Shown here: positions 42,468 through 49,852 of the stretch, piece by piece | Layout: every line of letters starts with the position of its first letter | How positions within the stretch are numbered: the first letter of the stretch is position 1 | From: Verrucomicrobiota bacterium | GTDB lineage: Bacteria > Verrucomicrobiota > Verrucomicrobiia > Verrucomicrobiales > Akkermansiaceae | Direction: 5' to 3' | Length of the DNA stretch: 51,328 nucleotides | Assembly (NCBI GenBank): GCA_018969605.1 | Contig: JAGWXY010000007.1 | Coordinates: 1 to 51,328 of the forward strand | Translations under genes and position numbers: made by a program | Notes under the pieces: model-generated | What the model was told of the DNA's origin: nothing | Databases searched by the model: none | The model's input: only the letters and a program-made list of their open reading frames with translations

Positions 42468-43547
42468 CTAATCGGATTTCTCAATTTTAAGTTTGGCATC
42501 GGCCTCCGCTTGAAGCACGGCGATGTAGCGCTCGGGCAACTTCGCCTCCTTGGCAGCCTGGATGGCAGTGGCAACCAACGGGCTGTTTCTATCCGCAGAA
42601 CGCACCGTCCGCAAGGAATCACGATAAATCCTTCCTCCCTCGGCCGCATTTTTCGACCCGCCGGCGGCAAACCTAGCCTCTTGCTTCCTTGCAAAGGCCA
42701 GCCCTTGCTCAATCGAAGCCTTCGAATAAGGGTCCACAGTAAGCCATCCGATCTTCGAATCCACCTCCGACTTCCTGAGCGCCGCCATTTGCGCCGCCTC
42801 TTCGGCAATCGCCAACTGAGCATCACGCCGCGCAACCGCCGACATCCTCTGCAAGCCGATATCCCTTTCCTTCATCCGCTCATCAAGCGTCACAAGCATT
42901 TCATCAAGCTCCGATACATGGGCATCAACAACTCTCTTCATCAAAGGAATCAGATCACGATACACCTCGCTGTTGGCAAAATCCTTCTCATAATTCTCAA
43001 ACTCACGCAAGGCCCGCACATAATCCCCTGCATCGATAAGCCGCCGGATGCGAATTTCCGCCACCCGCGCATCCATTTCGTAAGCATCAAGACGATAATC
43101 GTCCGCACTCACCATCTTTCCGTTGATCTTGAGCGCACCGGCCAACACCTCATTCGCTTCACGCTTCAAGGTTTCAAGCATCTCCTTGGCCTGAACCGGC
43201 TGCACCGCAGTAGGCGTGGCTTTGAGAAACTTCTCCACCTCCCTGATCCGGCGGTCATAGTCCCGCTGGCCAAGCAAATCGGGCGTGGGCACCAATTTGG
43301 AAATCCTTGCAAAATCATCGTTGACCGACTCCGAACGCCGCACCTCCGACACATCCTCCTTCGCCAATACCCGCTCGTCCTTGATCCCCGCGGAAACCTT
43401 GACCTCCACCCGGTACCCCGTCGCATCCTCACTCAATAGCACCCCCTCAACCTGTGTGCCGGACTTTAAAACAAAAACATCGGCATTCGACCGACCAAAG
43501 ACAGCAAAACAGGCAAAGGCAATAACGGGAAAAATTTGTAAATTCAT
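42468..43547 (-). CDS. exported protein of unknown function
   Basis: 359 residues with a signal peptide (MNLQIFPVIAFACFAVFGRS). The first mature part (FVLKSGTQVEGVLLSED, KVSAGIKDERVLAKEDV) is a small beta domain of the kind seen in many verrucomicrobial exported proteins; a PTPDLLGQRDYDRRI motif and long helical, lysine- and glutamate-rich regions follow. No enzymatic motif was found. The C-terminus is coiled coil. It is upstream of hisB in the same direction but has no evident link to histidine synthesis. Confidence 0.6.
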   Translation of the reverse strand: MNLQIFPVIAFACFAVFGRSNADVFVLKSGTQVEGVLLSEDATGYRVEVKVSAGIKDERVLAKEDVSEVRRSESVNDDFARISKLVPTPDLLGQRDYDRRIREVEKFLKATPTAVQPVQAKEMLETLKREANEVLAGALKINGKMVSADDYRLDAYEMDARVAEIRIRRLIDAGDYVRALREFENYEKDFANSEVYRDLIPLMKRVVDAHVSELDEMLVTLDERMKERDIGLQRMSAVARRDAQLAIAEEAAQMAALRKSEVDSKIGWLTVDPYSKASIEQGLAFARKQEARFAAGGSKNAAEGGRIYRDSLRTVRSADRNSPLVATAIQAAKEAKLPERYIAVLQAEADAKLKIEKSD

Positions 43548-43597: not shown

Positions 43598-45763
43598 TCA
43601 CTGCGGCAAGACGCCTTGACGTAAGCCATCCGCCGTCGTCACTGTTTTTTCAGCACCATCGCTATAAACAATTTTCACCATGCCCGCAGGCACTTGTTGG
43701 GCGGATTTCGCAAATTGACGATGAATCAGCCGGGGTGAAAGTTCCTGCACCGCGCGCAGAAGGTCCCCTTGCACGCCCTCACCCACCAGCACGCTCACCT
43801 TGAAGTGCCGCGAAATGATCGCGAGGATGAGATCCGTGTGCATGACCGGCCGCTCCACCGCATAGAGCGGAAAGGGTGTGGCCAACTCGCTCAACTTCGC
43901 AACCAGCGGCCTTCCAAGGTTGGCAAGACGACTCTCAGACATCGATATCAAGCCGCAGGTCGAATCATCGAAGATCATCGCCAGACTTGTAACGGGCAGA
44001 TCAATCAATGCGGCGCTGTCCGGGCATTCCTTGAGAAATCCCTCACCAATGAACAACTCAGCCAGCGTGGTGGCCAAATCATCCGACCAAATGTACAAGC
44101 TCTCATCGAGCGTCACAGCCGCCACATCAAGCACCGCCTGCAGGCACAGCGCGTATAGAAACGCACGCCCGGCACCAATCGAATCCGCCGTATCCGTAGT
44201 GAACATGCGTAGCCTTGGCCCAACGGCAAAAGCCTCTTTCCCCCGCTTGAGCAATGCCACCGCCTTGTCACGGTAAACCTCATCACCGGTAGCGGAAAAA
44301 GCCGACGCGTAGGCAGACACCATGCGCCAAGTCGCTCCGGCGTGAGCCGTTTCGTCCCGCGGCAACCGACCGATTCGCGCCTCGCGTACCGCCAGCAACT
44401 TTGCCTTGGCCGCCTCATAGCGCGGGCGAAACTGCTCAGGCGTCATCGATTGACGCGCGGCGATCTCTTCGAGCGTCGCCTTCATGCCAATGGTGTTCTT
44501 TCGAAAATGAAGCCTGCCGGGATCATCCTCCGAAGGAATGTTGCCCAACCGCTTCATGCCGGTCGCATCGATCCACCAAGCGGCGTCCTCGGCACCCAGC
44601 ACCGACTCAACCTCCTCAACGGTCCACATCCATTTTTCCTGATCAACAGGCGATGCCAGACCAATGACGAAAAGCCCGTCCTTGGTGGAAAATTCCTTTT
44701 CGGCAAAACCGATCGCCTCCAACCCCCGATCCAAGGCCCGCTTATCCCCAGTGGTGCGGTAAGCCTCAAACAACGCAAGCGCCGCCCGCGCTTGGGAAGA
44801 ACAATCAAATGAAAAATTCGGCAAAGCCCATGAGCCGCGCTTTCTGGAAATACAAATTCCACCCCCAAGCGGATCAAACATCGCACTCGGCAAAAGGTCA
44901 TTCATGAGATACTTTACCACATCGGAAGATTTCAGACGCAAGTCCTCAGGAATCCCCGGGCGAGCAGCAACCGTGGCAAACACTTCGAGCGAACTCGCTG
45001 GAAACAATCCACCGGCCTCGTCCAGACTTCTTGATAATGGATCATACAGCGAAGCCAACTGGCGGATGCTTCGTATCGCATCCTGATCCGGCGCATCACT
45101 CGAAACCTTGGTAATCTTGCGCTGTTTGAATAATTCGCGGCGCCCCGCATTGTCCGCCTCGCTGTTTTTCAGCACATAATCCATCGAGTCGCGCCACATC
45201 AGCTTCACCATCTCGTTCGAGTTGCTGAAAACATCTGCCACATCATCCGACACCCGCAATGGAATCCAAGCAACCGGATTGCATTCATGTGTCATCCATA
45301 AAAACAATGGGAATTGCACCGGCATTTGAATCTGCATGCAGAGGTCGGGCACCAGCAATCCGATCTCCCGGCTCGCATCACCATCAATCAACACCGGAAC
45401 ATAATTATCATTGATGATGGAAACCAGAGATGCGTTTGCCGACAAGGAACTCAAAACCTTCTGGGATGACCACACTTGCGGCATCCCAATCACGCAGAAT
45501 AGCAGCCGATTGGCCGCCTTCGCCCTGTCAATGGTCTCCTTGGTCCACGGCTGCCAGTGGATCGGCGACGAGGCCTGGCTTTGATACAAGGCCCCGGGCA
45601 AAGAGGACAGGCCGTTGGTCTGCAGTTGGGGCGAGGTGTGGATGATGAGCTGGTCGCCCTTCGTACCAACCTGCTCGCCGCGGCGGCAGGCACTTGAGGA
45701 CCCGAATAAAAGCAATAAGAGCAAGAACCGGCAGGCGAGCATCGAGGGTTTTAAAATTTGCAT
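43598..45763 (-). CDS. DUF255/thioredoxin-like lipoprotein with degenerate active site
   Basis: 721 residues. A lipoprotein signal (LLLLLLFGSSSACRRG) precedes a DUF255-like thioredoxin domain (about 60-180) that begins with PIHWQPWTKETIDRAKAANR, the usual YyaL/spermatogenesis-associated-protein-20 pattern. Where relatives have CHWCHVM this protein reads GMPQVWSSQKVL, so both redox cysteines are missing. The rest is an alpha/alpha-barrel region with DPLGGGICISRKRGSW and AHAGATWRMVSAY. The export signal and lost cysteines suggest a binding rather than a redox role. Confidence 0.75.
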   Translation of the reverse strand: MQILKPSMLACRFLLLLLLFGSSSACRRGEQVGTKGDQLIIHTSPQLQTNGLSSLPGALYQSQASSPIHWQPWTKETIDRAKAANRLLFCVIGMPQVWSSQKVLSSLSANASLVSIINDNYVPVLIDGDASREIGLLVPDLCMQIQMPVQFPLFLWMTHECNPVAWIPLRVSDDVADVFSNSNEMVKLMWRDSMDYVLKNSEADNAGRRELFKQRKITKVSSDAPDQDAIRSIRQLASLYDPLSRSLDEAGGLFPASSLEVFATVAARPGIPEDLRLKSSDVVKYLMNDLLPSAMFDPLGGGICISRKRGSWALPNFSFDCSSQARAALALFEAYRTTGDKRALDRGLEAIGFAEKEFSTKDGLFVIGLASPVDQEKWMWTVEEVESVLGAEDAAWWIDATGMKRLGNIPSEDDPGRLHFRKNTIGMKATLEEIAARQSMTPEQFRPRYEAAKAKLLAVREARIGRLPRDETAHAGATWRMVSAYASAFSATGDEVYRDKAVALLKRGKEAFAVGPRLRMFTTDTADSIGAGRAFLYALCLQAVLDVAAVTLDESLYIWSDDLATTLAELFIGEGFLKECPDSAALIDLPVTSLAMIFDDSTCGLISMSESRLANLGRPLVAKLSELATPFPLYAVERPVMHTDLILAIISRHFKVSVLVGEGVQGDLLRAVQELSPRLIHRQFAKSAQQVPAGMVKIVYSDGAEKTVTTADGLRQGVLPQ

Positions 45764-45781
45764 GATGGTTTTTTTTAGATC

Positions 45782-45795
45782 CAGTTATGTAACTG
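45782..45795. promoter_or_regulatory. small inverted repeat in the divergent region before parA-like gene
   Basis: CAGTTA and TAACTG are inverted repeats separated by TG. They lie between the DUF255 lipoprotein gene and the ParA-like gene, about 19 bases upstream of the former's ATG. It could be an operator for either gene; nothing more is visible. Confidence 0.3.
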
Positions 45796-45873
45796 AATGA
45801 TGCGACAGGATGAAGAAAAGGCTTCCGATGTGGCAAGCCAAAGCTATCTTGCGGCAGCAAATTTATAAAGCGC

Positions 45874-46659
45874 GTGATTAGTATTGCAGTATCAAGCCAA
45901 AAAGGCGGAGTGGGAAAAACTACCGTCTCGATCAACCTTGCCCACGCCTTCGCCATCGCGGGCGTGAAAACCCTGCTGGTCGATGCCGACCCCCAAGGGT
46001 CGGTGGGGTTATCCCTCACCCGGCAATCAAGACTGCTTCCCGGCTTTTACGACTACCTTGCCGACCCAGGGCTCCCGCTCGAACAACTGATCGTGCCAAC
46101 GCGGCTTGCGACATTCTCGCTAATGGCCAGCGGACAAGCTGGCGACTACGACACCGGCGGCAGCATGGGTGCCCACCTCGCGCGCGTGCGCACTCTGCTC
46201 CATCAAATTTCCCATCGCGGCTTCGATCTCTGCCTCATCGATACCGCCGCCGGACTCTTCGGCGTTTCCGGCGATGTCATCGCTTCCAGCGACGCCGTGC
46301 TCATCCCCCAACAAGCCGAACCCCTCGGCATCCGCTCAGTGCCCAAGCTGCTCGACGGACTTGGCAAACTTCGCGTGATGAACCCCCGCCTCCAAGTCCT
46401 CGGCGTTCTGCTCACCATGGTCCAAAACGATCTCGATGACAGCATCGAGGCCGCCAAAGCCCTGCGCCAACTCCTGCCCGCCGAACTCGTTTTCCAAAAT
46501 GAAGTCCCGCGCGACGGCACCTTCATCAAAGCCAGCGCCCGCGGACTGCCAGCTGGCGTCATGGAAAACGGTGAACCCATCCGCAAAATTTTCGAAGGCA
46601 TCCGCATGGAAATCGCCCGCAAAACCTCCTCACCCGCACTCAATCCACGCCACGCATGA
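45874..46659 (+). CDS. ParA-family ATPase
   Basis: 261 residues. The deviant Walker A SQKGGVGKTTVSINLAH (residues 8-24), the switch LVDADPQGS near 34-42 and LCLIDTAAGL near 118 are intact, so ATP-dependent dimerisation is expected. Such ATPases position chromosomes, plasmids or protein clusters. No ParB-like gene follows; the next gene, overlapping by four bases, encodes a different small protein and then an ECF sigma factor. The start is a GTG at 45874. It is longer at the C-terminus than Soj. Confidence 0.92.
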   Translation: MISIAVSSQKGGVGKTTVSINLAHAFAIAGVKTLLVDADPQGSVGLSLTRQSRLLPGFYDYLADPGLPLEQLIVPTRLATFSLMASGQAGDYDTGGSMGAHLARVRTLLHQISHRGFDLCLIDTAAGLFGVSGDVIASSDAVLIPQQAEPLGIRSVPKLLDGLGKLRVMNPRLQVLGVLLTMVQNDLDDSIEAAKALRQLLPAELVFQNEVPRDGTFIKASARGLPAGVMENGEPIRKIFEGIRMEIARKTSSPALNPRHA

Positions 46660-47249
46660 ACCCCATCGACACCTGGATCGATACCGATGAAGTCCGGCGC
46701 CTCGCCGAGCGCCTCATTTCGCCCGAGCGCCAAGCGCCGGCAAATGTGAGGGAAGCGGGATTCAATGATTCCTTCGTGGGATTTGCGGATGCCACCCCCA
46801 CCCCTGCGGATGCCACCCCCCCCACCCCTTCACCCGCCACGCCTATCCCAAAAGCCTCGGTGTTCGTGCCTCAAACCGCAGTTCCATCCATCAGCTTGCC
46901 GAAACAGGCAACCGAAAATCCACAACCATTTTCAGCAGATTGTGCCGCACTGGCGGACTGGCTGCACCAGGAATGCGGGGCCTCAGCGGTGTTCTTGATC
47001 AACCTCGACGGCAACGTCCTTCACGACGAAGGCTGCGCCCACCTCCATTTCGCCGCCCGTGGCATGGCCCTCAACTGGAAAATTCGTGATGCGGTCAAGC
47101 CCGTGCGCCTGCTCGTTCACGCCGGCAGCTACCTCGAGCTGATTCCACTAAACCACCCGCAAGGACGCCTCATCCTCGGCATCATTGTGCAACACCCAAT
47201 CAACCCGACCACACTCGACCACATCCGCGAAAAATCCTCCCGAGCCTGA
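46656..47249 (+). CDS. uncharacterised partner of the ParA-like protein
   Basis: 197 residues, not assigned. The first 50 residues are acidic-helical; residues 43-85 are low complexity and Pro/Thr/Ala-rich, encoded by two related copies of GCGGATGCCACCCCC. The C-terminal half (about 95-190: ADWLHQECGASAVFLINLDG, LELIPLNHPQGRLILGII) has the strand-helix pattern of small roadblock/LC7-like domains that bind GTPases; this is a weak guess. Its ATG overlaps the ParA-like stop, so the two are probably translated together. Confidence 0.5.
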   Translation: MNPIDTWIDTDEVRRLAERLISPERQAPANVREAGFNDSFVGFADATPTPADATPPTPSPATPIPKASVFVPQTAVPSISLPKQATENPQPFSADCAALADWLHQECGASAVFLINLDGNVLHDEGCAHLHFAARGMALNWKIRDAVKPVRLLVHAGSYLELIPLNHPQGRLILGIIVQHPINPTTLDHIREKSSRA

Positions 47250-47292
47250 TCGCGAATCTGTCAAAAAATTTCCTCACCCGCAGCATCAAGCC

Positions 47293-47838
47293 ATGACCGA
47301 AGACCCATCCTCAGCGTCCGATTCCGAGGACTTCGTGAAGGAACTCACCAACCACCAGAGCTCGATGCTTGCCTACATTCGCTCGTTGGCACCCGGCGGA
47401 TCCGGTGCCCGCGATCTGTTGCAGGAAGTCAACATCACCCTTTGGCAAAAACGCAATACCTACGAACTCGGCACCAATTTCAAAGCCTGGGCATTCCAAA
47501 CGATCCGCTACCACCTGCTCAATCACCGCCGCCGCCTCGCCTCACAAGGCTGGTTGGTTTTCGACGACGACCTCCTCCAACGCGTCGCACCGGAGCTTGA
47601 TTTCGAGCCGGATGCCCTCGAGGAACGCCACCTCGCATTGCGCAAATGCCTCCAGCGCCTGCGTCCCTCCGACCGCGAACTGATCCATCACCGCTACGTC
47701 ACCAGCGCCTCACTCCAAGAATATGCCGACAAGACCAACCGCAGCACCGGAACACTGAAGGCCGTCCTTTTCAATCTTCGCGCCGCCCTCAGGCGTTGCA
47801 TCGAACGCGAAATCCAATCCGCAACCGATCACCCCTAA
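47293..47838 (+). CDS. ECF sigma factor, Rhodopirellula/Verrucomicrobium type
   Basis: 181 residues. Region 2 (SSMLAYIRSLAPGGSGARDL, then LQEVNITLWQKRNTYELGTN) and region 4 (RPSDRELIHHRYVTSASLQE, EYADKTNRSTGTLKAVLFNL) are present. The phrase YELGTNFKAWAFQTIRYHLL is characteristic of the TIGR02989-type factors common in Planctomycetota and Verrucomicrobiota. Its stop overlaps the ATG of a FecR-like gene, the normal partner layout. The ATG at 47293 was chosen; an upstream open frame overlaps the previous gene. Confidence 0.92.
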   Translation: MTEDPSSASDSEDFVKELTNHQSSMLAYIRSLAPGGSGARDLLQEVNITLWQKRNTYELGTNFKAWAFQTIRYHLLNHRRRLASQGWLVFDDDLLQRVAPELDFEPDALEERHLALRKCLQRLRPSDRELIHHRYVTSASLQEYADKTNRSTGTLKAVLFNLRAALRRCIEREIQSATDHP

Positions 47839-49175
47839 TGAAGCGCGCCGACCACCACCTGGTCCAGAAAGTGCTGGATGGCGAAATTTCCCGCGAAGGC
47901 TTCGATGGTTTTCAAAATCGCCTGCGCGAAGATCCCGAACTGATCCAACTCTACGGCTCCTACGCTTCGCTCAACCACAATCTCAACGAGGAGTTTGAGG
48001 ATGGCCAAACGGATCCACTGGCAACAAATGACCGGCAAACAGTGCTTCGTGCCTGGCGCATCCCGCTTGCCATCGCCTGCGTGCTAGCGATCGCTTTTGC
48101 CGCATGGATCCTGCCTCAGTTGTTTGATGGCGGCAAAAACTCAGGTGATGTCGCAATCGCATCATTTTCAATCGATGCCGTATGGAGGATTGATGGGCCC
48201 TCGAAAATCCTCGGCGGCACAACAGCACTCAGCACCGACAGCACCCTTCACCTACTCGCCGGCCGGGCCAGCATCTCACTCAAACCCTCAGACAGCCTTG
48301 TCATCGAAGGCCCTACAAGCCTCCGCTTCCCGTCTGCGGAATCCATCGAAATACTCAAGGGCAAGTGCCTCATCCAACAGTCGGGTCGCAACAACATACT
48401 CGTTGTTTCGACTCCTCAATTTGCAAAAATCACTTCAGGGAAATGCTTTGGCATCTTCGTCGACCCTGAGCAAAAATCCGACGAAGTACACGTCATCGAC
48501 GGCAATCTTGAGGTCCTTCCTCGCGAGGAACACAACACCACCCAACTCGTCAAGGGCGACGCGGTCCATTCGGTCAACGGCGCCGCCACCACCCGCTTGC
48601 ACCAGCAAACCAGAACCTTTGCCAACAGGCTCGATCGATTCAATTCATTGGCAATCACGCCGTTTCGAAAATCCGATTGGCGCGCTTCCTATGGCAACCC
48701 CAACATCACCGAGACACGCATCGAGGGAGCCAATTTTGCCATCATTCACAAATTCCAATCACCACTGCCACTCGACGAAAAATCGGTCTTGCTGGTCACG
48801 CTGCAGTGCGCCGAGCCCAGCATGGGTAAATTCCATAGCGACGGTTGGGCCGGCATGAGCCTCTTCAGCCAAGGAACCGAAATGATTTTCCTCGGTGACC
48901 CCTACGGCCCTGGGCTGTCATGGGGCCTCGATGTCAAAAACGCAGAGCCCCGAGCGCCGCGCAAAACCACCACGATAGGCTCTGCCACCATGACTCTGCG
49001 CTACGACTCCAGCAGTGGCAGCATAAGCCTCCACGAAGGCGGACTCCCCCTCAAACCAGCCATTTACAGCGGCAAAATTCCACAAGGGACCCGCTTCGAC
49101 GAATTGCGACTTGGAGCCTCGGCCGGTGCCGCGCTCACTGTCACATCACTCCAAGTCCGTAGCAGCGGCCAATAA
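47838..49175 (+). CDS. FecR-like membrane protein, probable anti-sigma partner
   Basis: 445 residues. The cytoplasmic N-terminus (residues 1-70) has the anti-sigma-type helical pattern (HHLVQKVLDGEISREGFDGF), a single helix lies near 72-92 (RIPLAIACVLAIAFAAWIL), and the exported part contains a FecR domain (about 125-245) and then a lectin/LamG-like beta domain. The FecR plus LamG fusion after a TIGR02989-type sigma gene is a recurrent verrucomicrobial layout. It would hold the sigma factor and respond to an outside signal. It overlaps the sigma stop and ends near a dispersed repeat. Confidence 0.82.
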   Translation: MKRADHHLVQKVLDGEISREGFDGFQNRLREDPELIQLYGSYASLNHNLNEEFEDGQTDPLATNDRQTVLRAWRIPLAIACVLAIAFAAWILPQLFDGGKNSGDVAIASFSIDAVWRIDGPSKILGGTTALSTDSTLHLLAGRASISLKPSDSLVIEGPTSLRFPSAESIEILKGKCLIQQSGRNNILVVSTPQFAKITSGKCFGIFVDPEQKSDEVHVIDGNLEVLPREEHNTTQLVKGDAVHSVNGAATTRLHQQTRTFANRLDRFNSLAITPFRKSDWRASYGNPNITETRIEGANFAIIHKFQSPLPLDEKSVLLVTLQCAEPSMGKFHSDGWAGMSLFSQGTEMIFLGDPYGPGLSWGLDVKNAEPRAPRKTTTIGSATMTLRYDSSSGSISLHEGGLPLKPAIYSGKIPQGTRFDELRLGASAGAALTVTSLQVRSSGQ

Positions 49176-49246
49176 CGATGCGCTCGAAACGAATGAACTC
49201 AAGTTCATGGGGCTAATCAAACAGCCGCGTTCCTAATATCCACGAC

Positions 49247-49370
49247 GGAGCAACAACGCAGCCATGGACAAAAAATTACGCTCCTTTTCCAAGACCCGGC
49301 GAAGCCTCAAATTTCCCACACCTACCCCCAACCACCGGTCACAGATTTGAGGAAAATGCTCTAAACTCAG
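49247..49370. repeat. convergent-intergenic dispersed repeat, copy B
   Basis: The partner of 34082-34220. It keeps GCCATGGACAA, GCGAAGCC and AGATTTGAGGAAAATGCTC; the hairpin in the last block is GAG/CTC here. Like copy A it lies between convergent genes and runs up to the stop codon of the minus-strand gene; the last bases of the repeat form that stop. Confidence 0.75.
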
Positions 49371-49852
49371 CTTTCCGCTCCTAGCTTACCCACCACCCTT
49401 CCCCTCACCGCTTTTGCGAGCGTCTCGCGTAGGGTCGCACGGATCGGACCCAAGGACACATGCACGCCGGAAGTTTTCGCAGCATCGAAATGAAGCGTCA
49501 TGTGCGTCATGCGTTCATCGAATTCCACCGCGTCGATCTCCTGCCAAAGCACCAAGCGCATGCCCTGCTCTGGTCGCCACAGTGGAAAAATTTCCACACC
49601 CATCGGTGTTAGGATCAAGTAGGCATGACGCGTCATGCGCACGGCCATTCGCAGTAAAAAAATGGCAACAAAAAGCGGCAAAAGCATCCAAGCCGGATGC
49701 GGCAGCGCGGGGTTGATGTCACGATAGAGCGAGGTCAGCCCAAGCGTCACCGCCGTGCCCGCGAGCATCGCAGAGAGCAGCCAGAAAACCACCGCTTGGC
49801 CCGACCTCGTAAAGCGCAGCTCTTTCTCCGGCGACTGCACGCTTGGCTTCAT
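49367..49852 (-). CDS. small membrane protein, function unknown
   Basis: 161 residues with two hydrophobic segments (AVVFWLLSAMLAGTAVTLGL near 20 and PAWMLLPLFVAIFLLRMAV near 55), then a soluble beta domain resembling a membrane-bound PH-like domain (LILTPMGVEIFPLW, LVLWQEIDAVEF). Bacterial PH-like YdbS/YdbT proteins have this layout, but the match is weak. Its ATG overlaps the stop of the Hpt-like gene on the same strand, so the three small genes here are one transcription unit. Confidence 0.6.
   Translation of the reverse strand: MKPSVQSPEKELRFTRSGQAVVFWLLSAMLAGTAVTLGLTSLYRDINPALPHPAWMLLPLFVAIFLLRMAVRMTRHAYLILTPMGVEIFPLWRPEQGMRLVLWQEIDAVEFDERMTHMTLHFDAAKTSGVHVSLGPIRATLRETLAKAVRGRVVGKLGAES

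Follow-up and report, generated by a model that had tools for sequence, protein, structure and literature searches.

Do four adjacent genes in a member of the Verrucomicrobiota form a single system? The genes lie at 45874-49175 in a stretch of 51,328 nucleotides from a genome of the family Akkermansiaceae (GenBank assembly GCA_018969605.1, contig JAGWXY010000007.1, positions 1 to 51,328), which we call the window. All are read from the forward strand: a ParA-family ATPase with a deviant Walker A motif (45874-46659, GTG start, 261 residues), a protein that we call ORF2 (46656-47249, 197 residues), an extracytoplasmic function (ECF) sigma factor (47293-47838, ATG start, 181 residues) and a FecR-like membrane protein, the sigma factor's companion (47838-49175, 445 residues). 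ParA and ORF2 overlap by four bases (46656-46659), a gap of 43 bases (47250-47292) follows, and the last two genes share one base, 47838, within TAATG. A preliminary description, made from the window alone, had reported these positions, overlaps and gap correctly. It had also proposed that the four genes are one unit linking protein positioning to envelope signaling. Judged by sequence comparison, all four reading frames are genuine rather than chance, because all are kept as proteins across other genomes. As described below, the four do not stay together in relatives, where ParA-ORF2 and sigma-FecR occur as separate pairs.

ParA and ORF2 are encoded as a pair

All 49 loci from public genomes have ParA and ORF2 on one strand, with ParA upstream. 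ORF2 starts at an offset of -4 or -1 from the ParA end in 41 of the 49; in seven others 0 to 11 bases separate the two genes, and the largest spacing, 344 bases, is at L106, where the ParA frame is shortened. Two of these loci come from named isolates, Luteolibacter pohnpeiensis and Haloferula rosea. The rest are mostly metagenome-assembled genomes (MAGs) under Verrucomicrobia names; the depositors labeled some of them Akkermansia muciniphila or Prosthecobacter debontii, assignments that we could not check. A search with the single ORF2 protein found matches in 28 of 59 genomes: 27 of the 36 congeners plus the genome of the window. The 22 genomes of other families had none. ParA and ORF2 stay paired across the 27 congener loci, a set that shares genomes with the 49 public loci and is not additive with it.

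With a profile built on ORF2, matches extend to 42 of the order's 189 genomes and to 14 of its 43 genera; three further families show weak matches. Twenty of the loci so detected were examined, 14 from other families and six divergent ones from the window's family. ParA is directly upstream of ORF2 in 19 of these 20 (at L129 and L139 its frame was read separately from the gene calls), and the last, L133, sits at a contig end and is the only instance of ORF2 without ParA. Widened ORF2 and ParA profiles, the latter with a cut-off of E ≤ 1e-45, match the identical 20 of 337 genomes of the phylum, all in the same order. The ORF2 and ParA matches overlap or lie at most 30 bases apart in 18 of these genomes; the ORF2 matches in G053 and G141 start within the profile rather than at its beginning. 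Neither gene was found outside the order in the 337 genomes, a weak negative because the first pass scored at most seven candidates per genome. Families f2 and f3, which are positive for the ORF2 profile in the order-wide scan, have no row in the 337-genome scans, which may not have included those genomes. From these gene orders, the ParA-ORF2 module is present in several families of one Verrucomicrobia order.

We set aside a mobile origin of the pair: searches for ORF2 at E ≤ 0.01 came up empty in plasmids (72,556 records) and in phages (50,697 records). At one locus (L217:4140-5865, genome G039), a tandem pair of ParA-profile genes precedes ORF2.

The sigma factor and FecR genes form a separate pair

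Conservation of the four-gene order had been proposed as a check on the single unit. The order occurs at 0 of the 49 public loci and, as displayed, at 0 of the 27 congener loci. The sigma factor and FecR genes are each absent near ParA-ORF2 at all 49 public loci, several of which stop 0.5-1 kb past ORF2 and still cover the place that the sigma gene has in the window. Neither gene is displayed beside the pair in the congeners, where the display spanned seven genes on each side of ORF2 in 25 loci and the whole stretch in two; in those two, ORF2 had been missed by gene calling and was found afterwards.

The second pair has its own history. Relatives of the window's FecR-like protein at E ≤ 1e-50 are present in six of 36 congeners, away from ParA-ORF2. 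Five of these six congeners have an ORF2 match, on a different contig in all five. A sigma factor gene (73-79% identity) lies directly 5' of FecR in five of the six, and the sixth is at a contig end. At the looser threshold of E ≤ 0.001, FecR-type matches are common, occurring in 37 of 59 genomes. Because the sigma and FecR genes are beside ParA-ORF2 at none of these loci and are sited elsewhere in six congeners, we read the arrangement in the window, on gene order, as two unrelated modules side by side in one genome. The sigma/FecR pair is ordinary and unrelated, and came to adjoin ParA-ORF2 in the window's lineage.

The preliminary description had named two signs that would speak for separate pairs: their separation in related genomes and distinct promoters at about 47250. 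The separation is what we found. Distinct promoters were not shown; a promoter and terminator scan of 45600-49400 gave one promoter-like site, not near 47250, with 1.1 expected by chance, and is uninformative. The suggestion that this locus is a candidate for an undescribed system is supported for the ParA-ORF2 pair alone, which is a good candidate, and is not supported for the four genes together.

The identities given to the second pair were largely borne out. The sigma factor belongs to the Rhodopirellula/Verrucomicrobium family TIGR02989 (143.7 bits; cut-off 124.55). The fourth gene had been called FecR/LamG. Its FecR part is supported through homologues only: Pfam FecR matches five of six aligned proteins (best E 2e-7), the exception being the window's protein itself, which has zero Pfam matches at E ≤ 1. 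Its LamG part is unconfirmed, with Pfam LamG matching 0 of the six. The window's protein has a single strongly hydrophobic segment at about residues 75-93.

The first gene is a ParA/MinD-type ATPase

The assignment of the first gene as a ParA ATPase was confirmed by matches to CbiA and AAA_31 above the Pfam cut-offs. The deviant Walker A sequence KGGVGKT is invariant in 28 of 28 ParA proteins, and the predicted structure of the window's ParA is closest to Thermus Soj (2bek_B; Z 30.5, root-mean-square deviation [rmsd] 2.0 Å, 239 aligned residues, 32% identity). Motif and Soj-like predicted fold together place it in the ParA/MinD family. Over 28 sequences of the genus, mean column identity is 84% for ParA compared with 39% for ORF2. 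One of the ParA alignments (A6) holds 32 of 50 sequences; in another (A5), the start codons of L122, L123, L125, L128, L130 and the longer L131 were called by us and the first residues are unsure. By eye, no arginine of the window's ParA aligns with the DNA-binding arginine R218 of Bacillus subtilis Soj.

The genome encodes a second, Soj-like ParA, distinct from that of the window, on contig 133 (G000:C133:2870-3673, L146). A single TIGR00180 ParB lies on contig 99 (L147:7080-7982), and contig 21 has a further match that is short and weak. The Soj-like ParA and this ParB stand on separate contigs, each amid unrelated genes, and from this placement they appear not to be one parAB operon. No ParB-family partner is encoded with the window's ParA: ORF2 lacks a family match and its predicted fold is best matched by Roadblock proteins. 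None of the 20 genomes searched from the order (the window's own and relatives) gave a match to MinC (PF03775), compared with 6 of 14 control genomes.

ORF2 has a predicted Roadblock fold

The second protein had been left unassigned, and ORF2 indeed has no Pfam or NCBIfam match at E ≤ 0.1. Its relatives give only scattered weak family rows at E ≤ 1, none of them Roadblock, and the Pfam Roadblock model Robl_LC7 (PF03259) matches 0 of 28 and 0 of 25 ORF2 members at that threshold. Searching the ORF2 profile against PDB sequences returned nothing, with one row at E 0.38.

Conservation is unevenly spread along the protein. Residues 1-24 (46656-46727) are the best conserved stretch, with a mean of 2.81 bits, an invariant W7 and a predicted helix at residues 10-21. 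The motif W-[ILV]-[DE] occurs in the first 30 residues of all 49 public ORF2 proteins and all 16 distant ones, compared with 0.6% of shuffles. Residues 45-88 (46788-46919) are a variable proline-rich linker, modeled with low confidence and least conserved (0.81 bits). Residues 89-197 (46920-47246) form the C-terminal domain, of which residues 89-183 reach about 2.3-2.6 bits. Only W7, G119 and G170 are invariant columns in 25 diverse members. The linker is highly variable in length between species, and ORF2 ranges from 168 to 354 residues among the 49 public loci; at L058:7943-8614 the linker is a long Ala-Pro repeat. Several distant members have, by eye, an extra basic linker helix that is not in the window's protein.

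Structure prediction had been proposed as a check on this protein, and it yielded a C-terminal Roadblock/LC7 fold. We modeled ORF2 with AlphaFold2 from 50 sequences (alignment A3, 50 of 50). Residues 91-197 have mean predicted local distance difference test scores of 88-97 in blocks of ten and run helix-strand-strand-helix-strand-strand-strand-helix, the order of the Roadblock/LC7 fold. The overall predicted template modeling score is 0.55, low presumably because of the linker. In a Foldseek search of the PDB, the best match to the model was Myxococcus MglB (E 3.1e-5), and proteins with Roadblock domains also make up most of the matches ranked after it. VIA comparisons gave Z 12.1 (2.5 Å, 101 aligned residues) for an archaeal Roadblock protein and Z 12.0 (rmsd 2.9 Å, 107 aligned) for MglB; GAF domains in the same list reach Z 9.4. 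The C-terminal domain of ORF2 is therefore predicted, from the model, to have the Roadblock fold, which occurs in small-GTPase regulators as well as in subunits of dynein and Ragulator and is known mainly for small GTPases. Sequence methods fail to see the relation, so ORF2 would have escaped any survey of the family that relied on Robl_LC7. The whole genome of the window has no Robl_LC7 match, and 3 of 14 control genomes are positive.

A candidate positioning system

We read ParA and ORF2 as a two-gene module, a positioning-type system made up of a ParA/MinD-type ATPase with a partner dedicated to it, and we assign this reading a probability of roughly 0.5. On our analysis the partnership is well supported; the positioning role is one that we infer. 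ORF2 is taken as the cognate partner because its conserved N-terminal motif is joined by a tether to a folded C-terminal domain, the layout of known partners. PMC10241942 describes the partners of ParA/MinD ATPases as very diverse, with an N terminus that binds the ATP dimer and stimulates release and a remainder that links to the cargo.

More tentatively, and with slightly less than an even chance of being right, we propose that the Verrucomicrobiales have a positioning system whose ParA-type Walker A ATPase is regulated or loaded by a dedicated Roadblock-fold partner. In the main reading, ORF2 would dimerize through its Roadblock domain, as does MglB, described as a homodimer in PMC9481161. 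Its N-terminal motif, carried on the flexible proline-rich tether, would dock onto the ATP-bound ParA dimer, and this docking would trigger ATP hydrolysis. The Roadblock domain may bind a cargo, or else a receptor at the membrane or pole, and the cycle of ParA and partner would then place a cargo within the cell.

Several observations weigh against the positioning module. Residues 1-24 of ORF2 are net acidic (six acidic residues and three arginines, counted by eye), unlike the N termini of known partners, which PMC10241942 describes as positively charged. The joint presence of the two genes falls within one clade rather than representing many independent events, and because of this confinement their co-occurrence may largely be shared descent. 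Genus g18 manages without the pair, as neither profile has a match in the 20 listed genomes. In addition, nine of 36 congeners lack an ORF2 match, with ParA examined in one of the nine (G023).

ParA is also found without an intact neighbor. Among 12 further DUF255 loci, ParA is present in nine, and a full ORF2 profile match comes next in six of those. At L226:3900-5222 (G023), an intact ParA stands beside a decayed ORF2; at L237:3900-5674 (G577), ParA is intact, ORF2 is absent and a different gene comes next. Since ParA is kept in both, it can, on the sequence of these loci, outlive ORF2. This suggests either that ParA is useful without its partner in G023 and G577 or that the losses of ORF2 there are recent. 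At L228 the N-terminal part of ORF2 is readable and unreadable bases follow. L227 retains the flanking genes and lacks both ParA and ORF2; this joint absence, like that in g18, speaks for the pairing. The contigs of L232 and L233 end at the place of ParA, that of L233 beginning at the DUF255 gene.

Distance correlations point both ways. Those between ParA and ORF2 (plain correlations, 46 of 50 sequences, ORF2 represented by its last 120 residues) reach 0.78, compared with 0.40-0.67 for either protein against HisB or HisH. With hisB and hisH allowed for (44 of 50 sequences, all neighbors present), the value is 0.71 for ParA-ORF2 and 0.40 for ParA-DUF255; these partial correlations are descriptive, without a permutation test. 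The high plain value is not special, because the flanking pair DUF255-hisB reaches 0.82, with ParA-DUF255 at 0.73. Shared descent must account for a large part of the correlation, since every gene pair, neighbors included, exceeded all 500 permutations.

What else could the pair be? The part that works on the ATPase could be the Roadblock domain rather than the N-terminal motif, by activating it or by sensing its nucleotide state, in an arrangement resembling MglA/MglB with ParA replacing the GTPase. The nearest predicted fold to ORF2 is indeed that of MglB, a GTPase activator according to PMC9481161. Moreover, with three neighbors allowed for, ParA distances track the C-terminal part of ORF2 (partial correlation 0.68) above the N-terminal part (0.44), although the C-terminal part is longer in residues and its correlation is favored for that reason. 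We consider this version unlikely: the N-terminal motif is the best conserved part of ORF2, its tryptophan is among the three invariant columns, and Ras-like GTPases and ParA are separate P-loop families. It is similarly doubtful that the pair serves to regulate an enzyme, a secretion apparatus or a cell-wall complex instead of placing a cargo. BcsQ and FleN, relatives of ParA with such roles (PMC9178275), are among the structural neighbors of the window's ParA model, FleN/FlhG and BcsQ offering the precedent, and in one family ParA-ORF2 lies beside murG. However, murG is convergent to the pair and is found there in two genomes only, and no gene besides ParA and ORF2 was found to be constantly linked, with the downstream gene varying among RluD-like genes (by eye), ABC transporters and others.

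A role in partitioning a plasmid or second replicon, in which ORF2 would bind the centromere, would suit an ATPase closest to Soj. Yet hisB and hisH lie near the pair in 46 and 45 of the 49 public loci, the plasmid and phage records gave no ORF2 match at E ≤ 0.01, and its predicted fold best matches Roadblock proteins; we regard a partition role as very improbable. That all four genes of the window couple positioning to envelope signaling, as their shared strand and offsets of -4, 43 and -1 bases invite one to think, is scarcely credible, since the order is seen in the window alone and sigma-FecR pairs stand elsewhere in six congeners. As a conserved system the four-gene unit is ruled out by gene order in relatives; co-transcription in the window's organism alone is possible.

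Relation to known systems

The ParA-ORF2 module resembles the ParA/MinD systems ParABS, McdAB, ParC/ParP and others in combining a Soj-fold, deviant-Walker-A ATPase with a lineage-specific partner encoded next to it, whose N terminus is conserved and whose C-terminal domain is separate. It differs in that ORF2 has a predicted Roadblock fold and an acidic tryptophan motif and is not a ParB. With MglA/MglB it shares a Roadblock-fold protein encoded next to a P-loop nucleoside triphosphatase (NTPase), and MglB has the fold nearest to ORF2; however, ParA, an ATPase, here takes the place of the Ras-like GTPase, and Pfam Robl_LC7 misses ORF2. MglA was tried as the target of the Roadblock domain and set aside, none being found with PF00025, the sole model searched. 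This Arf-family model has one match in the genome (23.8 bits), which reads as ObgE by eye; 12 of 14 control genomes were also positive. Actinobacterial conservons (CvnA-D) likewise cluster a Roadblock protein with an NTPase, there a small GTPase, in the account given by PMC4316618, whereas the window's module has no histidine kinase or GTPase and belongs to a different phylum. Genes 3 and 4 correspond to the ECF sigma/FecR pairs of Verrucomicrobia (TIGR02989), from which the window differs notably only in the adjoining ParA-ORF2.

The ParA-ORF2 pair is apparently undescribed. A ParA-Roadblock pair is named in none of the titles and abstract openings among the matches listed from the open-access literature. 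Terms for the two co-occur in PMC11255338 only within the reference list. 'ParA' appears 0 times in PMC4316618, as does 'roadblock' in PMC10241942, and in PMC9178275 'roadblock' refers to obstacles on DNA and not to the protein fold. ParA/MinD ATPases with dedicated partners are already known; what is apparently new is one with a lineage-specific Roadblock-fold partner. These ATPases place many cargoes, and the variety of their partners leaves many of them orphan, according to PMC10241942. For a phylum that has been little studied, ParA-ORF2 supplies a ParA with a specific partner that can be tested. If the reading is true, the Roadblock fold would be extended from the control of GTPases to that of ParA. 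A general role of the fold in NTPase regulation was proposed by Koonin and Aravind, as cited in PMC4316618.

Genes flanking the pair

In the window, a DUF255/thioredoxin-like gene (PF03190, 43598-45763, reverse strand) lies divergent from ParA, followed by a PTPDL-family gene (42468-43547, reverse strand; NF041881, 298.9 bits). The typical congener layout is similar, with ParA-ORF2 mostly divergent from the DUF255 gene, then PTPDL, hisB and hisH. Across the 49 public loci, the neighbors are DUF255 in 47, hisB in 46, hisH in 45 and PTPDL in 37, and the PTPDL-family and DUF255 proteins are syntenic with hisB/hisH in most of them.

The DUF255 protein is present in 69 of 117 genomes of the window's family and is a frequent neighbor there. 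No gene bears its label beside ParA-ORF2 in the 14 other-family loci, and it is kept in L227 without the pair; as a required part of the module it is ruled out. A same-strand RluD-like pseudouridine synthase gene (by eye) after ORF2 was considered as a third module gene and rejected, being found in part of the congeners only and not constant. In another family, at L131 and L132 (G102 and G092), ParA-ORF2 is convergent to murG and lies between murG and PTPDL-hisB-hisH, with murG identified by NCBIfam in L131 and by eye in L132.

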